This document shows, in pieces, positions 181-12,474 of a DNA stretch of 64,000 nt; the first letter of the stretch is position 1; each line of letters starts with the position of its first letter. The notes under the pieces are model-generated. The model did no database searches and had not been told where the DNA came from. It was given only the letters and a program-made list of their open reading frames with translations. Made by a program: the position numbers and the translations under genes. The stretch lies in NCBI RefSeq assembly GCF_025717535.1, contig NZ_JAJIRO010000003.1:744001-808000 (forward strand), in the 5' to 3' direction. Source of the stretch: Paucibacter sp. Y2R2-4 (GTDB taxonomy: Bacteria > Pseudomonadota > Gammaproteobacteria > Burkholderiales > Burkholderiaceae_C).

Positions 181-1812
181 TCAAAATTCATGTGACATCG
201 AGATGCCGGCATAGCGAATGCGGATGCCGCCATTGATGTCCAGCCCCGCATAGGGGTTGTAGATCACGTTGAAGAAGTTGTTGCAGTTCAGATTGCAGCT
301 GGTGTTGGCGGGCAGATCGAACTTGCCATGGGCATAGCTGGCGGTGGCGTCGAAGCGGGTGCCGCTCTTGGTGGTGTAGCCAATGCCCACACTCTTGACG
401 GTGAGGTCTGGCATGGGCGCGATCAAGTCCATGGCCGAGCGCGGCACCGAGCTCTTCCGCGGCTCATAGCCGGCGCGCAGATGAAGGCTCTGGCCGATGC
501 TGAGGTCCATGCCATAGCCAAAGTGCAAGGGGCTTTGGTAGCCGCGCGGAATCACCAATTTGCTGGCATCGGGCTGGCCGAACAGGCGCGCCATCTGCAG
601 CAGCGCGACCTGCTGGTCGAACTGAAAAGTCATCTTGTCCCAGCGCTTCCAGTTGGTCCAGTTGGCGTCCACATTGAATTGCAGAAAAGACAGGGGCTTG
701 ACCTTGATGCCCACCTGCGCATGTTCGGGGAAGGGCAACACCAGGGTGACGTTGCCGCTTTGCACCGCCGGGATGGAGGTCGGCATGCCAAAGGTGGCCG
801 CCAGGATGGGCCCTTGCAGGCTGGCATACATGCCGTCTACAAATTTGCGCAGCATGGGGTCGGCTTGGAAGCTGAAACGGCCCGTCATGGCCGTCTTGCT
901 GCCGAACTGATAGCTGGCGCCCAGCGCAAACCAGTCCTTGGGCTCCCACAAAACGCCCAGGTTCAGCGTGGGGTCTACCGGCGCGGTCAGCTCAAAGTCC
1001 ATATTGCCGGCCTTGTTGAAGGGGCGCAGTCGGCCCTCTTTGCCGCCGCCGCACAGGCCAAAGGCCAGGGTGTCCAGCGGGTTGCCTTGGTCACCGCACC
1101 AAGCATCTTGCAGCTTGCCGATGATGCCCAGCAATTGGTTGGGCATGCGCATATCGGTGTTGAGCGCAAAGCCCTGGTGAGCAATGGGCACGCCAATGCC
1201 AAAGCTCAGCGTGTCGCTGTATTGGTAGGCGGCGGTCGGTGAGAGATAGACCAGGCGCTGAATGACGATCTTCTTGCCGTCAAAGCGGGCCGGGTCGTTC
1301 GGGTCTTCGGTGCGGTCAATGCCCACGGCCATGGGCACATAGGACGCGGTGCCAAAGGTCCATTTGGAGTCGGGCGCATGAAAGGCCAAACCCAGACCCG
1401 CACCCACGGCCGAAGGCAGGGGCCGCTTGATCGGGCCGTAGAGCGGCAAAAACAGCGAAGCGTTGACCTTGTCGCCGGTGCGCGTGCCGTTCAGCGGGTC
1501 TTCTTTCCAGCCGCCGATGTCAAAGTCGGGCGGCTGCGAGAAGCTCGCATAGGGCTTGATGGAGGCGCCGAACACCGCATCCTGGCGCCGATTCGCCTTC
1601 AGTCGCGCCAAGCCGGCGGGGTTGAAGTGGATGGAGTCCAGGCCCGGCGGGTCGGCCACCACCGCATTGCCCATGGACATGGCCACCACGCTGGCGCCCA
1701 GGTTGTCGGTCAGTGCGGCTTGGGCGTTTGGCTGGGCCCAGAGCAGGGCCGCGCCGGCCAAAGCCAGCCAGCCGCCTGCGGGCCTGGGGCGGCCCACTGC
1801 AAAACTGCGCAT
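181..1812 (-). CDS. FadL/TodX-family outer membrane porin
   Basis: The 543-residue product has a signal peptide ending near AQPNAQA and then the N-terminal segment typical of the FadL/OmpP1/TodX family: residues predicting a plug (ALTDNLGASVVAMSMGNA) and the family signature DSIHFNPAGLARL. Many alternating beta strands follow and the C-terminus is ...GISMSHEF, a terminal Phe as used by the BAM machinery. The family forms 14-strand barrels that let hydrophobic compounds such as long-chain fatty acids or aromatics cross the outer membrane. Only 10 bases separate it from the upstream barrel gene, so the two are probably co-transcribed with the C39 peptidase locus. The substrate is unknown, and the gene may serve the export locus rather than fatty acid uptake. 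Confidence 0.85.
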   Translation of the reverse strand: MRSFAVGRPRPAGGWLALAGAALLWAQPNAQAALTDNLGASVVAMSMGNAVVADPPGLDSIHFNPAGLARLKANRRQDAVFGASIKPYASFSQPPDFDIGGWKEDPLNGTRTGDKVNASLFLPLYGPIKRPLPSAVGAGLGLAFHAPDSKWTFGTASYVPMAVGIDRTEDPNDPARFDGKKIVIQRLVYLSPTAAYQYSDTLSFGIGVPIAHQGFALNTDMRMPNQLLGIIGKLQDAWCGDQGNPLDTLAFGLCGGGKEGRLRPFNKAGNMDFELTAPVDPTLNLGVLWEPKDWFALGASYQFGSKTAMTGRFSFQADPMLRKFVDGMYASLQGPILAATFGMPTSIPAVQSGNVTLVLPFPEHAQVGIKVKPLSFLQFNVDANWTNWKRWDKMTFQFDQQVALLQMARLFGQPDASKLVIPRGYQSPLHFGYGMDLSIGQSLHLRAGYEPRKSSVPRSAMDLIAPMPDLTVKSVGIGYTTKSGTRFDATASYAHGKFDLPANTSCNLNCNNFFNVIYNPYAGLDINGGIRIRYAGISMSHEF

Positions 1813-1822
1813 GAGCCTGGCC

Positions 1823-2848
1823 TCAGAAGTTCAGGGGCAGATTGAAGCCCAGGGTGAAGGCCGGCGAATCCGGGCCCAAGCCCACGCCGACCGACACGTT
1901 CACCGTGGTTTGCGGCGAGGCGCGCACGCCCAGACCAAAGCTGATTTGACCCGAGGTCTGCGGTGCGGTCATGCTGGTGCTGCCGTCGGCCAGATGCAGC
2001 TTGGTCTTGGCCGAGATCGTTTCCTGGAAAGACACCGTGGTCGAGACCTTGTAAGACAGGGCGTAGGCGAAGCCCATGCCGAAGCCGAAGCTGGCGCCGG
2101 GGTCCACGCCGGTCAGCGTGGCGCCGTTCAACTGCTGGCTCAGATGCCGCACCGGCACGCCCAACGTCAGCGAGACCGAACCGAACAAGGCCACCGGGTC
2201 CATCACCTTGGAAGTGTTGGCGCCCAGGCTGAGGGCGGTGTAGCCCGAACCGGTGCTCAGGCCTTGGCCAGCCACCACCTTGAAGGGGCTGCGGCCGCTG
2301 GGCACGCGCAGCGTGGCCGAGGTGGTCAGCGAAGGCAGATCGCGGCTCATGGCCATGGGTTGCCAGCGCAGGCCCATGCCGATATCGCCAAAGCCGTTGA
2401 CATTGCCGGAGAACTTGTCGGACTCCGAGAACTTGCTGACCAAGGGCAGCGAGACATTGGCGGTCAGGTTGTCCATCACCCCGTAGTCGGCCGAAACCGT
2501 GTTGGTGACGGTGTGGGCGCGGGTGTTTTGGATGCTGAACAGCGTGAGACGGCTGTCGTCAAATTTCGCATCGATCTGCTGGGCGCCGATATAGGCGTAG
2601 CTGAAGTCATAGGTCAGCGAGGTCTTGCCCTTGCGGATCAGCGAGTACTGCTTGTCTTGCGCGGTCAGTGCGGCTTTCAGCAGGGCGGTTTGGTCGACGT
2701 CACCTTCTTGCTTGGCCAAGGCCTCGCGCGCGGCTTGTTTGCTGGTGTCGGTGCTGGTTTGTGCCTGTGCTTGGCCTGCGGCAAGGCTCAGAGAAAGTGC
2801 CAGCGCGGCGGCGGCGAGCGAGGAAAAACGGGTGTCGAGAGAGTTCAT
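1823..2848 (-). CDS. Outer membrane beta-barrel, possible FapF-like export pore
   Basis: The 341-residue protein starts with a signal peptide ending AAGQAQA. A charged, probably helical stretch of about 45 residues (KQAAREALAKQEGDVDQ...) leads into KTSLTYDFSYAYIGA and a run of amphipathic beta strands ending FNLPLNF. A short helical N-terminal part followed by a C-terminal barrel, next to a gene for a lone C39 peptidase, recalls the FapD/FapF pair of Pseudomonas functional amyloid export; that resemblance is of layout, not a measured homology. The stop is 5 bases before the FadL-like gene's leader and the start is 5 bases after the C39 stop, so it sits in the middle of the operon. It could equally be a generic outer-membrane transporter-like barrel. 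Confidence 0.7.
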   Translation of the reverse strand: MNSLDTRFSSLAAAALALSLSLAAGQAQAQTSTDTSKQAAREALAKQEGDVDQTALLKAALTAQDKQYSLIRKGKTSLTYDFSYAYIGAQQIDAKFDDSRLTLFSIQNTRAHTVTNTVSADYGVMDNLTANVSLPLVSKFSESDKFSGNVNGFGDIGMGLRWQPMAMSRDLPSLTTSATLRVPSGRSPFKVVAGQGLSTGSGYTALSLGANTSKVMDPVALFGSVSLTLGVPVRHLSQQLNGATLTGVDPGASFGFGMGFAYALSYKVSTTVSFQETISAKTKLHLADGSTSMTAPQTSGQISFGLGVRASPQTTVNVSVGVGLGPDSPAFTLGFNLPLNF

Positions 2849-2853
2849 GGTCT

Positions 2854-3618
2854 TCAGCGGCGGAGATTGAAAATGCCAAACTTGGCTTGGACCGCGTTGC
2901 GCAAGGCTTCGGTGGTGTCCAGGGGGAGGAGACTGGCTTGGCGGCGTACCAGGTCGTCATCAATGACGCCCAGTTCTTCGTCGCCCAGGGCCAGCAGGGA
3001 AAGAGGCTGCGGCTGTCCCTTGCCGGGAGTCAGCAGGAACAGGGTGTTGCGGTCCCAGAGTTCTTCAAACTCGTGAACCGAAAAAACGATGTGACCGATG
3101 GCGGGGTCGGCCAGAAACACGCGACCGTTGCGCATGCCGCGAAACACCACAAAGTGTTTGAAACCGGCGTAGTCGATGGGCACGATGGCCGGCTGCGTCA
3201 ACTCGGCCAGGTCCTTCATGCTGGCGCGAAAGCCCGCGCCCTCGGCGCCCAGACTGAGGACATAGCGCTTCATGTCCAGCAGCGAGAAGCCGCGCCGGGC
3301 AATGATCTTGTCGCGTTCGCCAAAGGCCAACATGCCTTCCATGGCCTGCTGCTCATTGACCTTGATGCCAAGGTAATTGTTGATGACCGTCACCAGCGCG
3401 GCCGAGCCGCAGCTGTAGTCATAGGCCTGGTGCACGATATTGCGGAACTTGATCTCGGAGAGCGGCTCGATGCGCACCGACATCGGCGATACCCCGCCGC
3501 CCACCTGCGCCATCGGCAGTTCAAACTGCTGCTCGGGCACGTTCTGGATGGGGTATTGCGTCTCCACCGTGGCGCCGCCAATCCAGGCCGCCAGCGCGCC
3601 AAGAAAAATCATCCACAT
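2854..3618 (-). CDS. Periplasmic C39-family cysteine peptidase (FapD-like)
   Basis: The 254-residue protein has a short N-terminal hydrophobic segment (MWMIFLGALAAWIGG), probably an uncleaved anchor or signal, and a single C39 domain. The triad is visible: Cys70 in YDYSCGSAAL, His155 in FKHFVVFRG and Asp171 in FLADPAIG. There is no ABC transporter part, unlike bacteriocin exporters, so it is a stand-alone peptidase facing the periplasm, as in FapD. The C39 family cuts leader peptides after Gly-Gly type sites. The five upstream genes of the same operon encode exported proteins carrying a DxxLxx(V/I)xG(Q/R) motif, which are the obvious candidate substrates. The C-terminal 60 residues after the domain are of unknown role. 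Confidence 0.85.
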   Translation of the reverse strand: MWMIFLGALAAWIGGATVETQYPIQNVPEQQFELPMAQVGGGVSPMSVRIEPLSEIKFRNIVHQAYDYSCGSAALVTVINNYLGIKVNEQQAMEGMLAFGERDKIIARRGFSLLDMKRYVLSLGAEGAGFRASMKDLAELTQPAIVPIDYAGFKHFVVFRGMRNGRVFLADPAIGHIVFSVHEFEELWDRNTLFLLTPGKGQPQPLSLLALGDEELGVIDDDLVRRQASLLPLDTTEALRNAVQAKFGIFNLRR

Positions 3619-3681
3619 GTCCAGGTCTCCATACTGCCTACTGCTATTTCTTTGACTGCTGCTGTCTTGGGCTCAAACCCT

Positions 3682-4167
3682 CTACCTGGACCAAAGCAAG
3701 ACCTGACCCTGCATCTGCAGCGAGCCATTCAGCTGAATCTGACCGAGGCTGTTCGAGAGCGGCGCCAGTGGGTCGGTCTGCACGCCCAGGGCCTTGACGC
3801 CAAAATCCTTGAAGCCGAGAAAACTCGGCAGCGTCAGCTGGATCACATCGCCGACTTCGGCAGGGCCGGTCACGGCTTGCACCGTCAGGCCGAGCAGATC
3901 CAGCGTGCCGCTCAGGTTGTTCAGCAACAGATAAGTGGTGGTGGCGCCAACCTTGAAGCCCAGGCTGATGCGGTTCTCCGATTGCGGCCCGGTGTTCAGC
4001 TCTAGGTGGGCGTTCAAGACGATGCCGGCCTGGCCGCTGATGCCGCCCAGTTCCTCATCGGACAGCGCTGCTTTCAAGTTGGGGCCGGCCAGCGCCGCGC
4101 CGCCGCTGCCCATCAGCAAGAGGCTCAAGCTGATGCTGAAGAAGAAGGAGCGCAAGCAAGGTTTCAT
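3682..4167 (-). CDS. Small exported protein with leader-like motif (DUF6160-like)
   Basis: The 161-residue product has a signal peptide (SISLSLLLMGSGGAALAG) and then the motif ALSDEELGGISGQAG at about residues 34-48, which looks like the double-glycine leader consensus LSxxELxxIxGG with the last Gly replaced by Gln. The mature part is rich in beta strands and hydrophobic residues (LGFKVGATTTYLLLNNLSGTLDLLG) with no Cys. It is the last of five such genes before the C39 peptidase, 63 bases upstream of it, and its own start lies 5 bases after the stop of its upstream neighbour. I recall the family as DUF6160/Acinetobacter fil-type, but this needs a profile search. Likely a surface or periplasmic structural protein. 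Confidence 0.7.
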   Translation of the reverse strand: MKPCLRSFFFSISLSLLLMGSGGAALAGPNLKAALSDEELGGISGQAGIVLNAHLELNTGPQSENRISLGFKVGATTTYLLLNNLSGTLDLLGLTVQAVTGPAEVGDVIQLTLPSFLGFKDFGVKALGVQTDPLAPLSNSLGQIQLNGSLQMQGQVLLWSR

Positions 4168-4172
4168 GGCAG

Positions 4173-5120
4173 TCAGGGCCCTGTCTTCACGCGCACATCG
4201 AGGTATTGGATTTGCATGCTGCCGATGCGGCTGCTGCCCAGATCCAGGCTGGGGCCAAGATCACTCTTGAAGCTGATGTTGTCGATCACCAAGCTGCCAG
4301 CGGCTGCGGGCCCGGCGCTGGGCCAGGCCAGGTTCAGGTGCAAGAAGCTGTTGCCCTCGGGCGTGGTGATGGCGTTCAGCAAGAGGCGCTGGCGGTCCAG
4401 ATCGGCCAGGCGCCAGGGCTGATCGCTCAGGCCGCCCGCGGCGCTGGCTCCGGCCAGATGCAGTCCCCGCAGGCTGAACTGTTCGGGCGCGGCGGGGCTG
4501 TCGAACAAGGTGGTGTCGCCGCGTCCGCGCGGGCGCAGCAGCACTGCACCGGCGTCCAGACGCAGGCCCAGGCCAAAGGCGATGCCTTGCTCGACCGGGT
4601 CGGCATTGGGCGCGATGCTGAGGCTGCCGCCATAGCTGCGCAGGTCTTGGATCAGCAAGGCGCCGGCGTTGAAAGTTTCACTTGAAGCGCCACTGCGCTT
4701 GTCGATCAGGCTCAGGTCGGCGGCGAACTGCCAAGTCAAGCGGCCCAGCGCATTCAGCGGCTCGCTCAAGCTGACGCGGTCGGGCATGCCAGCTGGGCCT
4801 TTGAGCAGACTCAGCACATAGGGGTCAGCGTAAGTCGCGGCCAAGTCGTCGGCGCGCGACAGCGCGAAGTTGGACAGGCTCAGGCCCGAACCCTCGGCGC
4901 TGCCCAGGCGCAGGGTCAATGGGCCCTGCAGTGCAAAGCCGCGCAGATTGAAGGCAAAGCCGTCGCGCCCTTGCACATGGGCCAACTCTTCGTCGGAGAT
5001 GGGGGTCAGCGCCCAGCTAGGGCCCAGCGCGAGTGTCGCAAGCAGAAACACCAAAAGGGCTGCGAAGCCCTTGCTGTGTGTTGACTGCGGATCACGCCGC
5101 TGAGGCTGCTGCCTGACCAT
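4173..5120 (-). CDS. Exported protein with leader-like motif (DUF6160-like)
   Basis: Starting at the ATG at 5120, with GGAGG seven bases upstream inside the preceding gene, the product is 315 residues. A longer upstream in-frame stretch lacks a signal peptide and is not used. After a Lys/Arg-rich n-region and the hydrophobic segment AALLVFLLATLALGPSWA comes PISDEELAHVQGRDG, the same leader-like motif as in the four sister proteins but with Arg after the Gly. The mature region is beta-rich, with repeated L-x-L-x patterns (FNLRGFALQGPLTLRLGSAEG) and no membrane helix. It lies 2 bases after the stop of the upstream gene, so translation is probably coupled. The function is not recognised beyond membership of this exported set. 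Confidence 0.65.
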   Translation of the reverse strand: MVRQQPQRRDPQSTHSKGFAALLVFLLATLALGPSWALTPISDEELAHVQGRDGFAFNLRGFALQGPLTLRLGSAEGSGLSLSNFALSRADDLAATYADPYVLSLLKGPAGMPDRVSLSEPLNALGRLTWQFAADLSLIDKRSGASSETFNAGALLIQDLRSYGGSLSIAPNADPVEQGIAFGLGLRLDAGAVLLRPRGRGDTTLFDSPAAPEQFSLRGLHLAGASAAGGLSDQPWRLADLDRQRLLLNAITTPEGNSFLHLNLAWPSAGPAAAGSLVIDNISFKSDLGPSLDLGSSRIGSMQIQYLDVRVKTGP

Positions 5121-5122
5121 CG

Positions 5123-5959
5123 TCAGCCTCCGCCCGGTTTCACCAGCCCAGTGGGCATCGTGGGCGGCAGATTGGGCGGCACGAGGCCGCCCAGATTGGT
5201 GGCCGTGAGCTTGTCGCGCCAGTTCATCCAGAGCCCGGCTTGAGCCAAGTCCGGCGCCGGCATGCCGGCGACTGCGGCCGGAAATTGCACCGCCTGCTTC
5301 AAGACCGACAAGAACAAATCTCGGCTCGCTCCGCTGCTGTCGCCCGCTTGCAGCGTGCCGATCTGCGCCAGCGTGAAGGGGCAGGCGCTGGCACCGCAAG
5401 TGCTGCCGTCCCATCGCTTGCCGCCCAGCGGGTCGCTGCGGGAGTCCAGCGTCAGACCCGCGCCATCGCTGATGGCCAAAGACCCGCTGATGGCTTTGGC
5501 GCTCAGTCCAAAGGCGCCGCTGACGCCTTCAAAGCCCAGGCGCATGCCGATGATTTCGCGGCTGTTGGCGTCGCCCACATTGCGGTAGACCAGTTCAAAG
5601 AAGGGGTTGCTCAAGGCCACGGTGCGCTGGGCGCTGCCCAGATCGCTGCGGCCGAACTGCAAAAGGTTCAGGTCGATATCGGCGCCGCTGCCATTGCGCG
5701 GCGCATGGGTATATTCGCCCAGACGCAGCTTGGAAAAATTGGCGCTCAAAGACAGATCGGCGTTCAAGGTGAAGCGCGAAAAGTCCAGCCCATTCAAGCT
5801 GCTATTGCTGATGGACACCATGGCCTGGCCCCAGACGCCAGCCAGCTCGGTATCGTGCAGCGCGCTCATCTGCGCGTGTGCCGCGGGCGCGATCAGCAGG
5901 GCACACAGACCCAGCACTTGCAGGCGGTTCATCAGCAACTTGATCATCTTCATCACCAT
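5123..5959 (-). CDS. Exported protein with leader-like motif (DUF6160-like)
   Basis: I chose the ATG at 5959 because it overlaps the upstream stop as ATGA, giving 278 residues; in-frame ATGs at 5971 and 5953 are alternatives. The signal peptide ends near APAAHAQ and is followed at once by ALHDTELAGVWGQAM, the leader-like motif of this operon. The mature part is beta-rich and contains one close Cys pair (STCGASACPF) that could form a disulfide in the periplasm. The tail LPPTMPTGLVKPGGG is Pro/Gly rich. It is the third of five tandem relatives. A structural surface protein or fibre component is the likeliest role, but this is inference from context. Confidence 0.65.
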   Translation of the reverse strand: MVMKMIKLLMNRLQVLGLCALLIAPAAHAQMSALHDTELAGVWGQAMVSISNSSLNGLDFSRFTLNADLSLSANFSKLRLGEYTHAPRNGSGADIDLNLLQFGRSDLGSAQRTVALSNPFFELVYRNVGDANSREIIGMRLGFEGVSGAFGLSAKAISGSLAISDGAGLTLDSRSDPLGGKRWDGSTCGASACPFTLAQIGTLQAGDSSGASRDLFLSVLKQAVQFPAAVAGMPAPDLAQAGLWMNWRDKLTATNLGGLVPPNLPPTMPTGLVKPGGG

Positions 5960-6507
5960 CAATGCGCCCACATCCAGATCTTGGAACCTTGCAGGTCGAT
6001 ATTGGTGATGGCCAGGCTGCCCATCGAGGCGCTGCTATTGCCCAGGGTGATGGAGCCAATGCCCAGACTGGGGCTGAGCCGGTGGTCCAGGCCGGCATTC
6101 GGCACGGCAAACTGGATCACATCGCTGCGGCCGTCATAAGTGCCCGAGGCCAGCAAGCGGCTGATGCCCGCGGCCCCATCGGCGCCGTAAGCCGCCATCG
6201 CATTGCCCATGGCCGTGCTGAAGCCGGAGGAATTCAAGATGTCCACGGTCATCACGAATAGACCACGCAGGCTGATGTTGTTGAAGGCGATCGAGCCGCC
6301 TTCGGGGTTGCTGGCGCTCTTGGTGCTGTAGACGAAGGAGCCGACCCGGATGTCCAGGTCCGCCGCCAGCGTGACCCCGTCTTGTCCATGCACTTCGGCC
6401 AAATCGCTGTCCTCCAGCGCGCTCATGGCTCGCGCTGCACCGGCCTGCAAGAGCAAGGCGGGGAGCAGGACGAACAGGGCGATGAGCAACAAGTGCAGCC
6501 GGTTCAT
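5959..6507 (-). CDS. Small exported protein, paralog of the 6646-7254 gene
   Basis: The ATG at 6507 gives 182 residues beginning MNRLHLLLIALF, a clean signal peptide ending AGAARA. A longer TTG-started version lacks sense as a signal peptide. ALEDSDLAEVHGQDG follows, the shared leader-like motif. The mature part is a clear paralog of the neighbouring product at 6646-7254: both have a GGS(I/V)(A/S)FNNI segment, F-V-M-T-(V/I)-D-I-L, a P-N-A-G-L-D segment and the same end, LQGSK(I/F)W(M/V)WAH. No good SD is visible before the start, which fits read-through and coupling from upstream. The stop overlaps the next start as ATGA. Probable minor subunit or adaptor of the same surface structure. Confidence 0.7.
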   Translation of the reverse strand: MNRLHLLLIALFVLLPALLLQAGAARAMSALEDSDLAEVHGQDGVTLAADLDIRVGSFVYSTKSASNPEGGSIAFNNISLRGLFVMTVDILNSSGFSTAMGNAMAAYGADGAAGISRLLASGTYDGRSDVIQFAVPNAGLDHRLSPSLGIGSITLGNSSASMGSLAITNIDLQGSKIWMWAH

Positions 6508-6546
6508 GACAAGGGGATTTGAAAAAAGTGGATGAGGGTGTTTGAG

Positions 6547-6580
6547 AAAAAATCGGCCCGGCAAAATGGCGCCGGGCCGA
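6547..6580 (-). terminator. Intrinsic terminator between first and second small-protein genes
   Basis: Read on the minus strand, a perfect 9-bp stem CGGCCCGGC / GCCGGGCCG (6554-6562 and 6571-6579) with an 8-base loop is followed by A and six Ts. It lies 66 bases after the stop of the 6646-7254 gene and 39 bases before the next start. It would make the first gene the most abundant transcript, with the rest of the operon made by read-through. Confidence 0.8.
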
Positions 6581-6645
6581 GGGCTTGCTTGGCTTTTGAC
6601 GCTGCTGTTTTTCAAGCAGCGTTGTTCAGCTCAGAGCCAGGCAAA

Positions 6646-7254
6646 TTAGTGAGCCCAAACCCAGAACTTCGAGCCTTGCAGATTGATGTTGTTGATCTCA
6701 ACAGCGCCGAAGGAAGCGCCGTTGCTGTTGCCCATGGTGATGCCGGCGACAGAGACGCTAGGCGACAGCTTGGCGTCCAGACCAGCGTTGGGGAAGGCGA
6801 ACTGAACCACGTCGCCGCCAGCGTAGATGCCGCCAGTGACCAGCTTGACCAACTCGCCAGCGGTGGCGGAGGTCGGGGCGATGGCGCCGGTCTCGCCCAG
6901 GTGAGTTTGCATGGACTTACCGATGGTGTTGACGATGTTGCCGGCGGTGTTGGCAGCGGTCAGCAACTTGGTGGAGTCAGCGATGTCTGCAGCGGCCACA
7001 CCCTTCAGGATGTCGATGGTCATCACGAACATGCCCTTGACACCGATGTTGTTGAACGAGACCGAGCCGCCTTGTGCGTCCGTGTCGGTGTACTTGAAGG
7101 AACCGATATTGATGTTCAGGTCACCAGCGATGGACACGCCGTCCTGGCCGCTGACTTGCGACAGGGCGCTGTCGTCGATGGCGGTCATGGCCGAAGCCGA
7201 CAGGGAAGCGGCAGCCAGCAGAGCGGCGACGGCGGACAGTTTGAATGCTTTCAT
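6646..7254 (-). CDS. First, probably major, exported protein of the C39 locus
   Basis: The 202-residue product starts at the ATG at 7254 with a good SD (GGAG eight bases upstream). The signal peptide [22 protein letters not shown] is classic, followed by [15 protein letters not shown], the leader-like motif. The mature protein is small, Ala/Gly/Asn/Thr rich, beta-prone, without Cys, and ends [11 protein letters not shown]. It has the best translation signals of the set and is followed by a strong terminator, a pattern usual for major subunits of surface fibres or layers. The nearest relative is the next gene downstream. The family is possibly DUF6160. The assignment as a structural subunit is inference. 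Confidence 0.75.
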
Positions 7255-7619: not shown

Positions 7620-8669
7620 TCAGGCCAGACTGCGCAGGCGGCTCGGCGAATGGCCGAACCAGCGCTTGCAGGCGCGGTAAAAATTGCTCGGGTCCGCAAA
7701 ACCCAGCGCGAAGCTCATCTCGGTGGGCGAGATGCTGCCTCGCTTCAGATAAGTAGCGGCCAGTTCGCGGCGGGTTTCGTCCAGCAGCTTGTTGAAACTG
7801 GTGCTTTCTTCCAGCAAGCGGCGCTGCAAAGTGCGCTCGCTCATATTCAACATGGCTGCAATCGCCTCGCGCTTGGGGTCGCCCTTGGGCAGCTCTTGGG
7901 TCAGCAGCTGCCGCACCCGCACCTGGATGCTGCCGCCGCGCTGCACCATGGCTTGCTGGGCGCTGCGCTCGCACAAGGTGGCTACGCCGGCGTTGGCGGT
8001 GGGGATGGGGGTGGCCAAATCGGCGGTGGCAAAGGCGATGCAAAAGCTCTCGGCGCCGAAGCGCAGCTCGCAGCCAAAGGCCTTCAGCCAGGGGTCCATG
8101 TCCTGGGGTGCGGCAAAGGGGTAGTCCACATGCAAGGGCCGCACCCGCACATTGGTGGCCCAGTTCAGCGATTGCAGCAGCACATTGGCGATGAAGTCAT
8201 AGCGCTGCATCGGCGGCGGCTGCAGGCCTTTCAGAATCTCCACCTGCAGCAGGCATTGCTCGTCTCCGCGTTGCAGGTCCATGCAGACGGCAGGCGAGAG
8301 CAGGGCCGAGAAGCGCAAGATGTATTGCAGCGCATCGCCCAGGTCGCGCGCCGACAGCACCAGATGGGCCAGCAGCCCTAAGGCCACCAGCGGATGCGCC
8401 GGCACGCTCAGGCCAATGGCCGCATCACCGGTGCGCGCTGCGGCCAACTCCCAGGCGCTGCTGTAGGCATCGGACAGCACGCGTGGATCGGGCTCGGTCT
8501 CGTCCAGGCCCAGTTGTTCCAGCAGGCTTTGCAAACACAGGCCGCGCGTCGCCATGGCCTGGGCCATGGCGTTGTGCCAGCTCGACACCAAGCTGGTGGC
8601 CGCGCGCGATTTGGGTTTAGTCGCGTCTTGGCGGGGCGTGCTGGCGGCAATGAGGCTGGCGCTGGACAT
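7620..8669 (-). CDS. AraC-family transcriptional regulator
   Basis: The product is 349 residues from the ATG at 8669; a GTG at 8720 would add 17. The C-terminal ~100 residues are a double helix-turn-helix: EAIAAMLNMSERTLQRRL is the first recognition region and MSFALGFADPSNFYRACKRWFGHSPSRLR is the conserved AraC second HTH and signature. The N-terminal ~200 residues match the arabinose-binding-like domain found in OruR/ArgR-type AraC members (a Leu-rich segment PLVALGLLAHLVLSARDLGDAL). Such proteins sense a small ligand and activate nearby genes. Being directly upstream of, and on the same strand as, the secreted-protein operon, it is a candidate regulator of it; this is inference from position. 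Confidence 0.85.
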   Translation of the reverse strand: MSSASLIAASTPRQDATKPKSRAATSLVSSWHNAMAQAMATRGLCLQSLLEQLGLDETEPDPRVLSDAYSSAWELAAARTGDAAIGLSVPAHPLVALGLLAHLVLSARDLGDALQYILRFSALLSPAVCMDLQRGDEQCLLQVEILKGLQPPPMQRYDFIANVLLQSLNWATNVRVRPLHVDYPFAAPQDMDPWLKAFGCELRFGAESFCIAFATADLATPIPTANAGVATLCERSAQQAMVQRGGSIQVRVRQLLTQELPKGDPKREAIAAMLNMSERTLQRRLLEESTSFNKLLDETRRELAATYLKRGSISPTEMSFALGFADPSNFYRACKRWFGHSPSRLRSLA

Positions 8670-8845
8670 GGTGCTGCGAACGAGGCCGACGGGGCTCAGA
8701 TTGAGGGACGGAGCCCGCACTCTAGAAGCCGGTTTGGGGCCTGTCGCCGTCCGTCCGTCTAGGTCTCGCCTGTCCCAAGGGATAGTGCTAGCTAGCCGAA
8801 GGGATAGGTTTTACGGGGATACCCGGAGCCCGCTCCCCGGCCAGG

Positions 8846-9580
8846 CTAAGGCTGCGTCGCGGGCGAGGGGGCGGAGGCCGCTTGCGCGGCGCCTGGGCGC
8901 TTTTCTTTGGAAAGAAAAATCAGCGGAATCAGCAGCGGCGCCAAGGCCACGTAATAGATCAACAGCACCCCGTCTGAGGCGATGGCGACCGGCGTGGCCA
9001 GCTGTTCCACGGTCTTTTGGCCTGGGGCCTCTTCGGCCTCCATCGTGACGGTGTAAGACCGGTTCAGCTGATGCTGGCTGCGGGCCGCGCGGAAGGTATT
9101 GCCCACCACATAGCGCTTGCCCTGCAGCGGCCGCGCCAGCGCCCAGCCCGAGTGCTCTGATGTTGTCTTCATAAAGCCCAGGCTCTGGGCCAGCTCGGCT
9201 TCATCCTCATTCAAATCGGCCGGCAGAAAGACCTGGTAGCCGCCTTGGGTGCTGCCGTTCAGCGCGATATGAAAAGGCCCTATGGCCGCGCTCAAGCGCG
9301 CTTTCAGCGGCGACTCCAACAAGCGCACCAGATCGGCCGGCGCTTCGAAGACATAGTGGTACTGCTCCCCCAGCACGACCAGCTGCTTGCGGTCTTGCGA
9401 GATCAGCAGGCTGGCGACTTGCTCGGTGTAGATGCGCGGCTTGCGCTGCGGGCTTGCGGCTTTGGCTTCGGCATCTGGGCCGGTGGGCTTGTCGCTGCTG
9501 GCGCAGCCCTTGAGGCCTTCCAGACCAATGAAGAGCGGCAGCATGCCAGCCATTAAAAGAGTACGTCGTTTCGGATGCAT
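8846..9580 (-). CDS. Hypothetical lipoprotein with C-terminal membrane segment
   Basis: The 244-residue product has an Arg-rich n-region, a hydrophobic core (LLMAGMLPLFIGLEG) and a lipobox LKGC with Ser residues after the Cys, so it should be lipidated; Ser rather than Asp at +2 predicts outer-membrane sorting. The middle contains no domain I recognise (LVVLGEQYHYVFEAPADLVRLL). Near the C-terminus is a hydrophobic helix (GVLLIYYVALAPLLIPLIFL) followed by basic residues, unusual for an outer-membrane lipoprotein and suggesting a two-point anchor in the inner membrane instead. It stands alone between two regulator genes on the same strand. Function unknown. Confidence 0.6.
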   Translation of the reverse strand: MHPKRRTLLMAGMLPLFIGLEGLKGCASSDKPTGPDAEAKAASPQRKPRIYTEQVASLLISQDRKQLVVLGEQYHYVFEAPADLVRLLESPLKARLSAAIGPFHIALNGSTQGGYQVFLPADLNEDEAELAQSLGFMKTTSEHSGWALARPLQGKRYVVGNTFRAARSQHQLNRSYTVTMEAEEAPGQKTVEQLATPVAIASDGVLLIYYVALAPLLIPLIFLSKEKRPGAAQAASAPSPATQP

Positions 9581-9681: not shown

Positions 9682-12474
9682 TCAGCTGACCCAGCCGCGT
9701 TCGCGGGCAATGAAGACCGCGTGGGTGCGGTTGCGCGCGTCGAGCTTGTGATTGATGTTGCGCAGATGGAACTTCACCGTCGGCTCCGAGATGTGCAGGC
9801 TGTTGGCGATCAGCTTGTTGGGCATGCCGGCGGACAAGCATTGCAAGATCTGCAACTCGCGCGGCGAGAGGCCGCAGTCGATCACTGGCGCAGCCAAAGG
9901 TGTGTCTGGCGGCATTGAGGAGGCAGGGTTGTCGAGCGCTGAAGCTTCCGGCGCGGCCTCGGGCATCGCCGCCCCTTGGTCGGTGATTTGAGCGTCGTTG
10001 CCCAGCACCAAATTCAACAGGGCCTTGAGGCGCGGTGTGTGGGCCGGGTTGCTGTGCCCCTGTTGGCGCAGGCGTTCCAGCAGGGCGATCAGCTGCGGCC
10101 CTTCTTCCAGATAAGTGGCTCGCAAAGCCAACTCGCCATCGGCCAGCAGCAGATCGGCCAGCAGCTGCAAGGCATCGCCTTCGTGCTGCAAGCTGGCCAG
10201 GGCCTGGGCTTGCAGCAAGCCCAGCTTCAGCTGGCGGCGCCGGCGGCCCAGTTTTTGTGCTTTGTCTCGCTTGGTCTGGCAGGCCTCCAGCACCTCTTCG
10301 GCGCGGCCGTCGCGCAGGCCCAAGCGCAGGCCGGCCAGTACCTGGTCTTCGACGTCGTTGATGGGCGTCATGCGGTCGGCGGCAAAGTCCCAGGCCGCCG
10401 GCAAGAGGCTCAGACGCTCGGGTGCCAACGGGTGGCCATGGTCAAACTGGTGCACCACCTGATATTGCTGCTCCAGACGCATTGGCGCCACGATGCGCGT
10501 CAGGCCCAGCGAGCGGCCCAACTCGGTGCCCGCATGGATCAAAGCCGCTGCTTCGGCATATTGGCCAGCGCGACACAGGGTGCGCGACAAAATCCGGTGG
10601 GCGATGACGATGGCATCCAAGAACACCAGCTCGGCCGACAAGTCCAAATACTCGCGCGCCAGGCTGGCGGCGCGCTCAAACTCGCCCACCTCGTAGAGCG
10701 CCCCGGCTAGGTAGATGCCCACATAAGCACTGCTGGCGCTGTGGCGGCCGCTGACGCGGCTCAGCTCCGCCAAGGCGGGCTCCAGCCGGGCAATCACCTG
10801 CAAGGCGCGGCCTTGGGCCAGCAGGGTGAAGGTGCTGATGCCGTGGCTGAAGGTGGTGCCGTAGATGCTGCCCATGCGCTTGAACAACTGCAGCGAGCGG
10901 TCGGCGTTTTCAATCGCCGCGTCAAAGCGATGCGAGCACAGGTCCACATAAGCGCTGATGGAGCGGAAAGTGGCCTCGCTCAAGCCGCCCAGCGCGGTGA
11001 CTTCCTGGTTTTGCAGTGCCGCCTCGCACTCGCTGAGCCGGTCCATCAAGACCAGTGACAAGGGGCTGAGCAAGCGGTACTCGGGCATGGCCTGCACGGC
11101 GGGCTCATGCTTGAGTTGCTCGGCCAATTCGCTGGCCTGGGCATATTCATAACGGAAGATATGCGCCCAGCTCAGCGCCACCAGCAGCTCGGGGTGGCGC
11201 AATTGCACGGCCGGCGGAATCTGCGCTAACCAATGGCGGCAGGTACTGATGTGGCCGCGCGCCAGCGCCTGCCAGACATGGCCGACCAGGATGGCACAGG
11301 CCTGCTCATGGTTGCCGGCGGCCAGCGCATGGTCCACGGCGGCACCGGGGTCACCGGCTTGCAAGAACCAGTCGGCCGCGCGCTGATGCAGCTCGGGCAG
11401 CCAATTGGGGTGGTCTTCGCCCAGCTTGCGCAGCAGGAACTCGGCAAACAGCGGGTGGTAGCGGAACTCGGTGCCGGCCGCGCCCATGCGCAGCACGAAG
11501 AGGCCTTGCTGCTCCAGCTGGCGCAAAAGGGTGGCGGCGTTGCTGATCTGGCAGACCGCATTGCAAATGCCCGGCCCCAGCTGCTTGATGAAGCTGGTCT
11601 GCAGCAAAAAAGTCTTGATCTCTTCGGCCTGATCCCAGAACACCTCTTCGTAGAGGTAGCGGCCAATATCGGCCGTTTGTTCGCAGAAGTTTTCGATGAA
11701 GCCGCGTTTGTCGCCGCGCGCCTTCAGCGCCAGGGCGGCCAGTTGCAGGCCGGCCGGCCAGCCTTCGGTGGCGTGCAAGAGGCGGCGCACACTGGCGGCG
11801 TCCAGCTGCAGCTGGTGGCGCTGGTTCAAAAACAGCTCGGCTTGTTCCAGATCGAAGCTCAGCTCGGCCATGCCAATCTGCAGCAAGCGCCCCTGGGCCT
11901 TGAGTTTGTACAGACGCAAGAGCGGTGCGCTACGCGCACTGATGAAGAGCTTGCACTGCGGCGGCAGGCGCTCGATCAAGCGCTGCATCAGGTCCACCGC
12001 GCGGGCCTCGCGCAGATGGTCGAAGTCGTCCAGAAAGATGGCGGTGGGTTGCTGCAGGGCGGCCACGGCGTCCAGCACATCTTGGCCCAGGCGCGAGCCG
12101 GTGTAGCGCGCGTCCATCAAGTTCGGCAGGGGCTGGGCCGGGCTGGCCTGGGCGCCGGCGGCCAGGGCCGAGTCGAGCAAGGCGCAGAGTCGCTCGACGT
12201 GGTTGTCGTCGGCGCTGAGTTGAATCCAGGCGGTGGCAAAGCCCTTTTCGCGCAGACGCTCATGCAAGCTCAAGAGCGCGGTGGTCTTGCCAAAGCCGGC
12301 CGGCGCAATCGCCAACACCAGCGAGACCTCGGCGCACTCTTCCAGCCAAGCGGCGAGGTTGGGGTTGTCGACCAGATGGCGGCTGAGTTGCGGAGCGGCG
12401 AGAAGGGTCATGGAGAAAACGAGCTGCTTCGGGCGGTTCGGCGCCGGCTGCGACCGCCGCGCACGAGTTTGCAT
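9682..12474 (-). CDS. MalT-like LuxR-family ATPase regulator
   Basis: A 930-residue STAND-type regulator. Near residues 57-64 is the Walker A motif APAGFGKT, then the Walker B-like PTAIFLDDFDHL, the ATPase and winged regions, a long central set of TPR/Ala-rich helices, and a C-terminal LuxR helix-turn-helix (LSPRELQILQCLSAGMPNK... SEPTVKFHLRNI) in the last 65 residues. This domain order is that of MalT and AlkS: ligand and ATP drive oligomerisation and activation of target promoters. The start is uncertain: the ATG at 12474 or the one at 12411, which better matches family N-termini (MTLLAAPQLSRHLV); neither has an SD. Its target and ligand are unknown; no maltose genes are in the window. Confidence 0.88.
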   Translation of the reverse strand: MQTRARRSQPAPNRPKQLVFSMTLLAAPQLSRHLVDNPNLAAWLEECAEVSLVLAIAPAGFGKTTALLSLHERLREKGFATAWIQLSADDNHVERLCALLDSALAAGAQASPAQPLPNLMDARYTGSRLGQDVLDAVAALQQPTAIFLDDFDHLREARAVDLMQRLIERLPPQCKLFISARSAPLLRLYKLKAQGRLLQIGMAELSFDLEQAELFLNQRHQLQLDAASVRRLLHATEGWPAGLQLAALALKARGDKRGFIENFCEQTADIGRYLYEEVFWDQAEEIKTFLLQTSFIKQLGPGICNAVCQISNAATLLRQLEQQGLFVLRMGAAGTEFRYHPLFAEFLLRKLGEDHPNWLPELHQRAADWFLQAGDPGAAVDHALAAGNHEQACAILVGHVWQALARGHISTCRHWLAQIPPAVQLRHPELLVALSWAHIFRYEYAQASELAEQLKHEPAVQAMPEYRLLSPLSLVLMDRLSECEAALQNQEVTALGGLSEATFRSISAYVDLCSHRFDAAIENADRSLQLFKRMGSIYGTTFSHGISTFTLLAQGRALQVIARLEPALAELSRVSGRHSASSAYVGIYLAGALYEVGEFERAASLAREYLDLSAELVFLDAIVIAHRILSRTLCRAGQYAEAAALIHAGTELGRSLGLTRIVAPMRLEQQYQVVHQFDHGHPLAPERLSLLPAAWDFAADRMTPINDVEDQVLAGLRLGLRDGRAEEVLEACQTKRDKAQKLGRRRRQLKLGLLQAQALASLQHEGDALQLLADLLLADGELALRATYLEEGPQLIALLERLRQQGHSNPAHTPRLKALLNLVLGNDAQITDQGAAMPEAAPEASALDNPASSMPPDTPLAAPVIDCGLSPRELQILQCLSAGMPNKLIANSLHISEPTVKFHLRNINHKLDARNRTHAVFIARERGWVS

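Follow-up and report, generated by a model that had tools for sequence, protein, structure and literature searches.

A probable Fil-type surface-fibre operon of Paucibacter and the likely two-step maturation of its subunits, by Sec cleavage and then at a Gly-Gln/Arg leader site

We analysed a 64,000-nucleotide stretch of Paucibacter sp. Y2R2-4 DNA (contig NZ_JAJIRO010000003.1, positions 744,001 to 808,000; hereafter the window), in which one minus-strand gene set encodes five small exported proteins, a lone peptidase of family C39 and two outer-membrane proteins. This set is very probably a Fil-type surface-fibre operon whose subunits mature in two steps, Sec cleavage first and then a C39 cut after a Gly-Gln or Gly-Arg dipeptide. 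Sec cleavage followed by trimming after Gly-Gln is likely in itself, and we infer that the C39 peptidase is the cutting enzyme. An earlier note on this DNA had proposed such a two-step maturation; its trimming step is now supported by the first residue of a homologous fibre in the Protein Data Bank (PDB entry 9xfv), with the cut apparently after Gln or Arg and the C39 peptidase as the presumed cutter. DUF6160 membership and FilA likeness of some of the proteins, and the Fil-like nature of the operon, are additions to that note.

The five small proteins all carry L-x-D-x-x-L-x-x-V-x-G-(Q/R) directly after the Sec signal, just as the earlier note had read them. Signal peptides were assigned by eye and from hydrophobicity, with no dedicated predictor. 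In the FilA-like protein (6646-7254) the Sec signal covers residues 1-22 (by eye), and a leader of residues 23-37, which contains the 12-letter motif, ends at G36-Q37 (P1 codon 7144-7146), so that the mature protein would run from D38. The other four motifs are LSDEELGGISGQ in protein 3682-4167 (ending G45-Q46, P1 codon 4030-4032), ISDEELAHVQGR in 4173-5120 (G51-R52, 4965-4967), LHDTELAGVWGQ in 5123-5959 (G44-Q45, 5825-5827) and LEDSDLAEVHGQ in 5959-6507 (G41-Q42, 6382-6384). When the window was read in all six frames and every stop-to-stop segment of 100 residues or more was scanned with the strict pattern, 5 of the 220 matched, and these were exactly the five proteins; a chance origin of the motif is ruled out by this result together with its wide conservation. 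The positions that define double-glycine leaders (hydrophobic, D/E, L, I/V and Gly at -2) are present at the right spacing in 5/5 proteins, with column counts taken from 122 distinct motifs. At the remaining position, -1, where such leaders have Gly or Ala, the window proteins have Gln or Arg. Of 49 orthologues of protein 3682-4167, however, 29 have Gly or Ala there (Gly in 16 and Ala in 13, next to Arg in 13 and Gln in 7), and because P1 swaps among these four residues in orthologues, the Gln or Arg of the window corresponds to the second glycine of classical leaders. The proteins themselves are not bacteriocins, which is ruled out by their Sec signals, precursor lengths of 161-315 residues, the solved fibre homologue of one of them and the absence of ATP-binding cassette (ABC) transporter matches from the ten scanned proteins. 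A sixth motif protein is encoded in the same genome on a contig other than that of the operon (L037, G000:C1:1488867-1488965), where a signal peptide is joined to LADDEMRGVNGGQ with a true double glycine; its C-terminus is FilA-like (...TRLLMWHH).

The most telling evidence for trimming is structural. In the AF2 model of window FilA (51 rows; mean predicted local distance difference test score, pLDDT, 79.5), the motif lies in a low-confidence N-terminal arm and a beta-rich fold begins at residue 40. A Foldseek search with this model gave a single match at E ≤ 0.001, PDB entry 9xfv (E 3e-17), which is 'Pilus-like-alpha', a natural pilus-like fibre from a karst cave released on 2026-02-18, and comparison by VIA gave Z 13.3 and a root-mean-square deviation of 2.2 over 145 aligned residues. 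By sequence (E 6e-45), residue 1 (D) of the 173-residue chain aligns to window residue 38, right after G36-Q37. The chain opens with DGVSIAG and is numbered 38 to 210 in the entry itself, and the closest precursor among our named loci (L186, 85.5% identical, 210 residues) has D38 directly after GQ. Moreover, GQ or GR stands immediately before the chain start in 106 of 107 homologues aligned from 9xfv residue 1, and the second FilA-like protein (5959-6507) aligns to 9xfv from its residue 43, just after its GQ. The chain start is 15 residues beyond the AxA signal-peptidase site (judged by eye), which agrees with the expectation of the earlier note that mature N-termini would lie away from that site, and the double-glycine alignment had pointed to the same bond before 9xfv was looked up. 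A cut between Gly and Gln, which would leave an N-terminal Gln, is less likely, because the 9xfv chain starts after Gln. A paper describing 9xfv was not found in the open-access literature, and the 3682-4167 protein had no significant match among solved structures (best E 0.16).

The motif is conserved at homologous loci, of which the best 80 of 497 were named and compared. At least one counted motif protein is present in 76 of the 80, and 270 of the 274 motif proteins lie on the same side of the C39 gene. The last motif residue is Q in 170 of them, R in 68, G in 21, A in 11, S in 2 and K in 2. No motif was counted in L192, L202, L220 and L253; in L192 the script assigned no C39 gene, and protein 3682-4167 has an orthologue there.

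The earlier note had also held that the motif should occur together with a lone C39 gene, and the two did keep company in both genome sets studied. For the class set of 370 evenly drawn genomes, the lone-C39 profile matched 53, and 48 were left after 5 with transporter-only matches were dropped. DUF6160 (E ≤ 0.01) was present in 6 class genomes, and all 6 were among the 48 of 370 with a lone C39 (Fisher 3.6e-6). A profile of the signal and motif (A2, 43 positions), which is not independent because it was built mostly from these same six genomes, gave 58 matches at E ≤ 8.7e-5, all within the six; the next match (3.2e-4) adjoins another lone C39, and the weaker ones (91 genomes in all at E ≤ 0.1) look like noise. 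Among 41 Moraxellaceae genomes, the motif occurs in 25/25 FilB-positive genomes vs 2/16 FilB-negative ones (Fisher 3.4e-9), where G466, with a weak and partial FilB match (50.9 bits) and no motif match, was scored as negative, and where G435 looks identical to G044, a class-set genome that contributed sequences to A2. Pseudomonas aeruginosa PA7 (L262 / G407) also has a locus of the FilB type, which includes a motif protein resembling FilA, and three other motif proteins form a second cluster near 5.55 Mb; of 15 sampled Pseudomonas genomes, PA7 and one other gave no FapD match at 1e-40.

The peptidase is a stand-alone protein of 254 residues with a C39 domain at about 65-205 and a tail at 206-254. 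Its Pfam PF03412 match lies far above the cut-off of 22 bits and places it in Peptidase C39, and the oxyanion residue Q64 and the catalytic C70, H155 and D171 are invariant in two alignments of relatives, so the earlier note was right in reading an intact Cys70/His155/Asp171 from this gene. The best structural matches are the peptidase domains of PCAT1 and ComA (best Z 15.8), and the C39-like domain of HlyB, which is inactive, follows with 13.3.

To place this peptidase among its relatives we took a wider set of 58 lone-C39 places, each with up to 20 kb of surrounding DNA, and built a tree, with no outgroup, from 82 C39 domains, of which 56 came from the wider set, 17 from the 80 named loci, 8 from Pseudomonas FapD and one from the window. 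The FilB, FapD and 'GG' groups had been listed by eye beforehand from scores, tails and motifs, and each falls on one side of a well-supported branch (98/97, 99/96 and 100/99, respectively). In the GG group, a neighbour gene with a signal-like segment followed by ...LxxxRGG is present in 13/17 loci, and in the FapD group the downstream FapE-like gene has ...LxxxRG(R/K) in 14/15. Pseudomonas fap loci were found at 14 places, and in all 8 that were read FapE has IEL(K/H)DQELA(Q/N)LRG(K/R)Y right after the signal peptide. With one crude signal-peptide filter throughout, and with 'near' meaning within 1.3 kb of the C39 gene and 'far' more than 3 kb from it, the motif was found in 15/36 near exported genes vs 1/70 far ones around GG- or FapD-type C39 genes (p 1e-7). 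Upstream of FapD-type C39 genes in six loci (L110, L122, L125, L127, L129 and L130) there are genes with a leader-like L-x-x-V/A-x-G-A behind a signal-like stretch, for example IDGNALSGANGA, which may possibly be a GA-type site in other Fap-like proteins. One genome (G080, L147-L152) holds seven lone C39 genes, two of whose neighbours have LSEEEMVEAEGK and MNDAEMAETQGR behind a signal-like segment.

A pathway that would fit these observations starts with Sec-dependent passage of the precursor across the inner membrane, where signal peptidase would take off the first ~22-37 residues (sites by eye). This would expose a 12-residue leader, a periplasmic version of the double-glycine leader, which the exported C39 peptidase FilB would bind and cut after the G-Q/R dipeptide, with Gly fixed at P2 and mostly Q, R, G or A at P1. 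Trimming would yield a subunit whose fold begins very close to its new N-terminus, and this subunit would then leave through the FilC/FapF-like barrel and polymerise into the fibre. We infer both that the cut comes before export and that the subunit takes the barrel.

Several observations weigh against a C39 cut at the leader. The 9xfv chain might list ordered residues only, so its start might mark disorder and not a cut. In the near/far comparison no enrichment was seen for the FilB group alone (0/6 near, 1/14 far) or for the 'other' group (2/27 near, 1/32 far). A strong GQ-type match is missing from 42 of the 48 lone-C39 class genomes; we read these as other C39 clades with other tags, and not every locus showed a tag. 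Two fragmented Moraxellaceae genomes (G467 and G468) have motif proteins with no FilB match, and no C39 was found on the four contigs read. We know of no C39 preference for Gln or Arg at P1. The FilC/FapF-like barrel, which is present in 80/80 homologous loci and in 54/58 wider lone-C39 loci (nine of them weak), is linked about as strictly as the C39 gene, and therefore co-occurrence alone cannot tell which of the two reads the motif. In the Fap system, according to PMC5557850, FapE alone gave no N-terminal peptides by mass spectrometry, a result that is only consistent with trimming, as trypsin itself cuts at K/R.

The close linkage of the barrel is much like that of C39 and thus suits a different role for the motif, in which the barrel or some other assembly factor would recognise it as a signal for secretion or assembly and the C39 peptidase of the same machine would cut something else; the substrate of FapD is moreover unproven according to PMC5557850. 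We consider this unlikely, because the pattern has the spacing of a C39 leader, because G or A can replace its last residue in orthologues, and because the segment is absent from the deposited 9xfv chain, unlike a retained export signal. If the leader were instead removed by a general periplasmic or surface protease, C39 would be dispensable; here it counts that the trimmed end alone is seen and the enzyme deduced, and G467 and G468 would fit, but C39 is tightly linked at the genome level, its catalytic residues are intact, a related clade has RGG leaders and, according to PMC5557850, the catalytic Cys is essential in the relative FapD, all of which makes another protease very unlikely. That the leader is retained and merely disordered in the fibre, its conserved residues serving as a flexible adhesive or regulatory N-terminus, draws on the fact that cryo-electron microscopy depositions can omit unresolved ends. 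We give it very little credence, since the 9xfv chain sequence starts exactly at the site set beforehand by the double-glycine alignment and the entry numbers this residue 38. Hence we favour Sec cleavage followed by a C39 cut after Gly-Gln or Gly-Arg.

The motif is not restricted to genes that adjoin a C39 gene. At E ≤ 0.001, G159 has 17 motif proteins and G259 has 21, of which one contains an internal stop codon, compared with 4-7 in the other four genomes, and in G159 and G259 they are scattered over many contigs with none adjoining the single lone C39 found in each. Among 16 of these proteins that were read, BLAST sorts the sequences that follow the motif into 13 clusters with no more than 2 members each, yet signal and motif are common to them and 16/16 motifs end in GQ; therefore, most of the passengers that bear the tag are unrelated to one another, which suggests a portable periplasmic processing code.

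The tail of the window peptidase holds a leader-like segment, LALGDEELGVIDDD. FilB-type tails read LALxDxELGV(V/I)DxD, and 74/79 fit one pattern and 5/79 do not, with Gly at the P2 Gly position in only 3/74. From the catalytic motif on, the best leader-like segment of the enzyme lies in the tail in 72/79 members of the FilB clade, with p<0.05 after shuffling in 55/79; the same threshold was passed by 5/14 FapD-clade tails, 1/17 GG-clade tails and 0/15 and 0/18 control tails, the rows being related and the p values not independent. In the AF2 model of the peptidase the tail has no confident placement (pLDDT 59 for residues 211-220 and 46 for 221-230). The FilB tail may possibly be a built-in pseudosubstrate, which we offer as a hypothesis only. 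More broadly, and tentatively, we suggest a Sec-dependent second-leader code that we hold to be somewhat short of an even chance, in which an exported C39 peptidase would mature unrelated, dispersed proteins that share only a signal peptide and ELxxMxDxxLxxVxG-Q, P1 (GG, R/K or Q) would have diverged with the peptidase clade, and the FilB tail LALSDxELGVVDxD, with its Gly replaced, would be an uncleavable pseudosubstrate inhibitor. Ahead of the catalytic domain, at residues ~33-42 of the peptidase (window 2854-3618), there is also ELPMAQVGGG, which is largely conserved in the nearest relatives and could be a self-cleavage site.

Table 1. Genes of the Fil-type operon in the window, with the matches that assign them
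Feature	Coordinates	Strand	Evidence
FilA-like fibre subunit (DUF6160)	6646..7254	-	PF19657 83.3 bits; 9xfv homologue E 6e-45
Second FilA-like protein	5959..6507	-	PF19657 60.9 bits; 9xfv E 1.4e-35
Exported protein	5123..5959	-	PF19657 borderline: 25.3 bits (window scan), 27.3 (genome search); cut-off 27
Exported protein	4173..5120	-	PF19657 only 15.3 bits
Exported protein	3682..4167	-	PF19657 only 17.3 bits
Lone exported C39 peptidase (FilB/FapD-like)	2854..3618	-	PF03412 66.2 bits; NF050078 FilB 248.9, NF058616 FapD 127.7
FilC/FapF-like outer-membrane barrel, likely export pore	1823..2848	-	NF050079 FilC 275 bits; NF058560 FapF 64.6
FilD-like OmpP1/FadL-family outer-membrane protein	181..1812	-	PF03349 136.1 bits; NF050080 FilD 408.9 bits

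The coordinates of the eight open reading frames (ORFs) were confirmed to be open and to start with ATG (Table 1). Pfam and NCBIfam scans covered ten window proteins, and the Fil matches are all homologues below the NCBIfam cut-offs, which are 220 for FilA (34.9 bits in the window), 475 for FilB, 630 for FilC and 970 for FilD; the FapD and FapF scores are also under theirs. The gathering cut-off of DUF6160 (PF19657) is exceeded by proteins 6646-7254 and 5959-6507; 5123-5959 is borderline, and 4173-5120 and 3682-4167 fall below it. Together, the FilB, FilC and FilD matches, the weak FilA match and the FapD, FapF and DUF6160 matches therefore point to a Fil-type fimbria operon in its Roseateles/Paucibacter form, related to the Fap amyloid system; its nearest named relatives are in Paucibacter and Roseateles of the Burkholderiales, and the tree agrees. 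Among the ten proteins, there were no matches at E ≤ 1 to FapA, FapB, FapC or FapE models, with the presence of all these models in the library unchecked, and none to FilE or FilF, the existence of such models in the library being likewise unchecked. No ABC transporter was over the cut-off among them either, and the locus does not qualify as a C39 bacteriocin/ABC export system. Upstream of the operon on the minus strand are an AraC-family regulator, QhpR-like below cut-off (7620-8720), and a 930-residue ORF that is LuxR/MalT-like by eye (9682-12474), both possible regulators; a 244-residue minus-strand ORF (8846-9580) matches nothing in Pfam or NCBIfam at E ≤ 1.

Fil, Fap and C39 are each known. 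FilA is the subunit of the Fil fimbriae of Acinetobacter Tol 5, according to PMC3498257 and PMC11784438, and a figure legend of PMC3498257 states that Edman degradation had already served to identify the FilA band. FapD C38A abolishes FapC secretion (PMC5557850), and FapD works in the periplasm (PMC5557850, PMC6173800); the FapD target was described in 2017 as unclear (PMC5557850) and in 2018 as undetermined (PMC6173800). In the open-access literature (subscription papers lay mostly outside the search), DUF6160 has one passing mention only and the leader motif in FapE was not found, nor did we find there the features that appear to be new, namely a double-glycine-like leader behind a Sec signal, a periplasmic cut after G-Q/R and unrelated passengers. 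Hence, the statement of the earlier note that no such system was known to be described holds for the leader behind a Sec signal and not for the system as a whole, which resembles the Fil fimbria and Fap systems. If our reading is right, it would give a concrete cleavage site for the periplasmic C39 peptidases FapD and FilB, bring two fibre systems of biofilms under a single maturation rule and predict where mature DUF6160/Fil proteins begin, those from Moraxellaceae and Pseudomonas among them.

A tag on unrelated, dispersed passengers would, if true, amount to a protein-maturation code like the sortase and exosortase systems in logic. Type V pili, the protease-triggered fimbriae of Bacteroidales, would share the proteolytic release of an assembly-competent subunit, with a different protease and different subunits. 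The ABC-transporter C39 domains of PCAT1 and ComA are alike in fold, catalytic residues and leader spacing; in contrast, the window peptidase is free and exported and has no ABC transporter, and its presumed leader stands behind a Sec signal with mostly Q, R, G or A at P1. Fap of Pseudomonas has a homologous exported C39 peptidase and barrel and a FapE tag right after the signal peptide, although P1 in FapE is K/R and not mostly Q as in FilB-type proteins, and its C39 forms a separate clade. The operon is also like that of the Fil fimbriae of Acinetobacter (NF050077-NF050080), in which FilA-, FilB (C39)-, FilC- and FilD-like genes also stand together and the same motif occurs in the Moraxellaceae proteins, whereas the window differs in scores that are all below the NCBIfam cut-offs and in having five motif proteins; a fibre has been seen for the homologue 9xfv, and the window protein may form one too.

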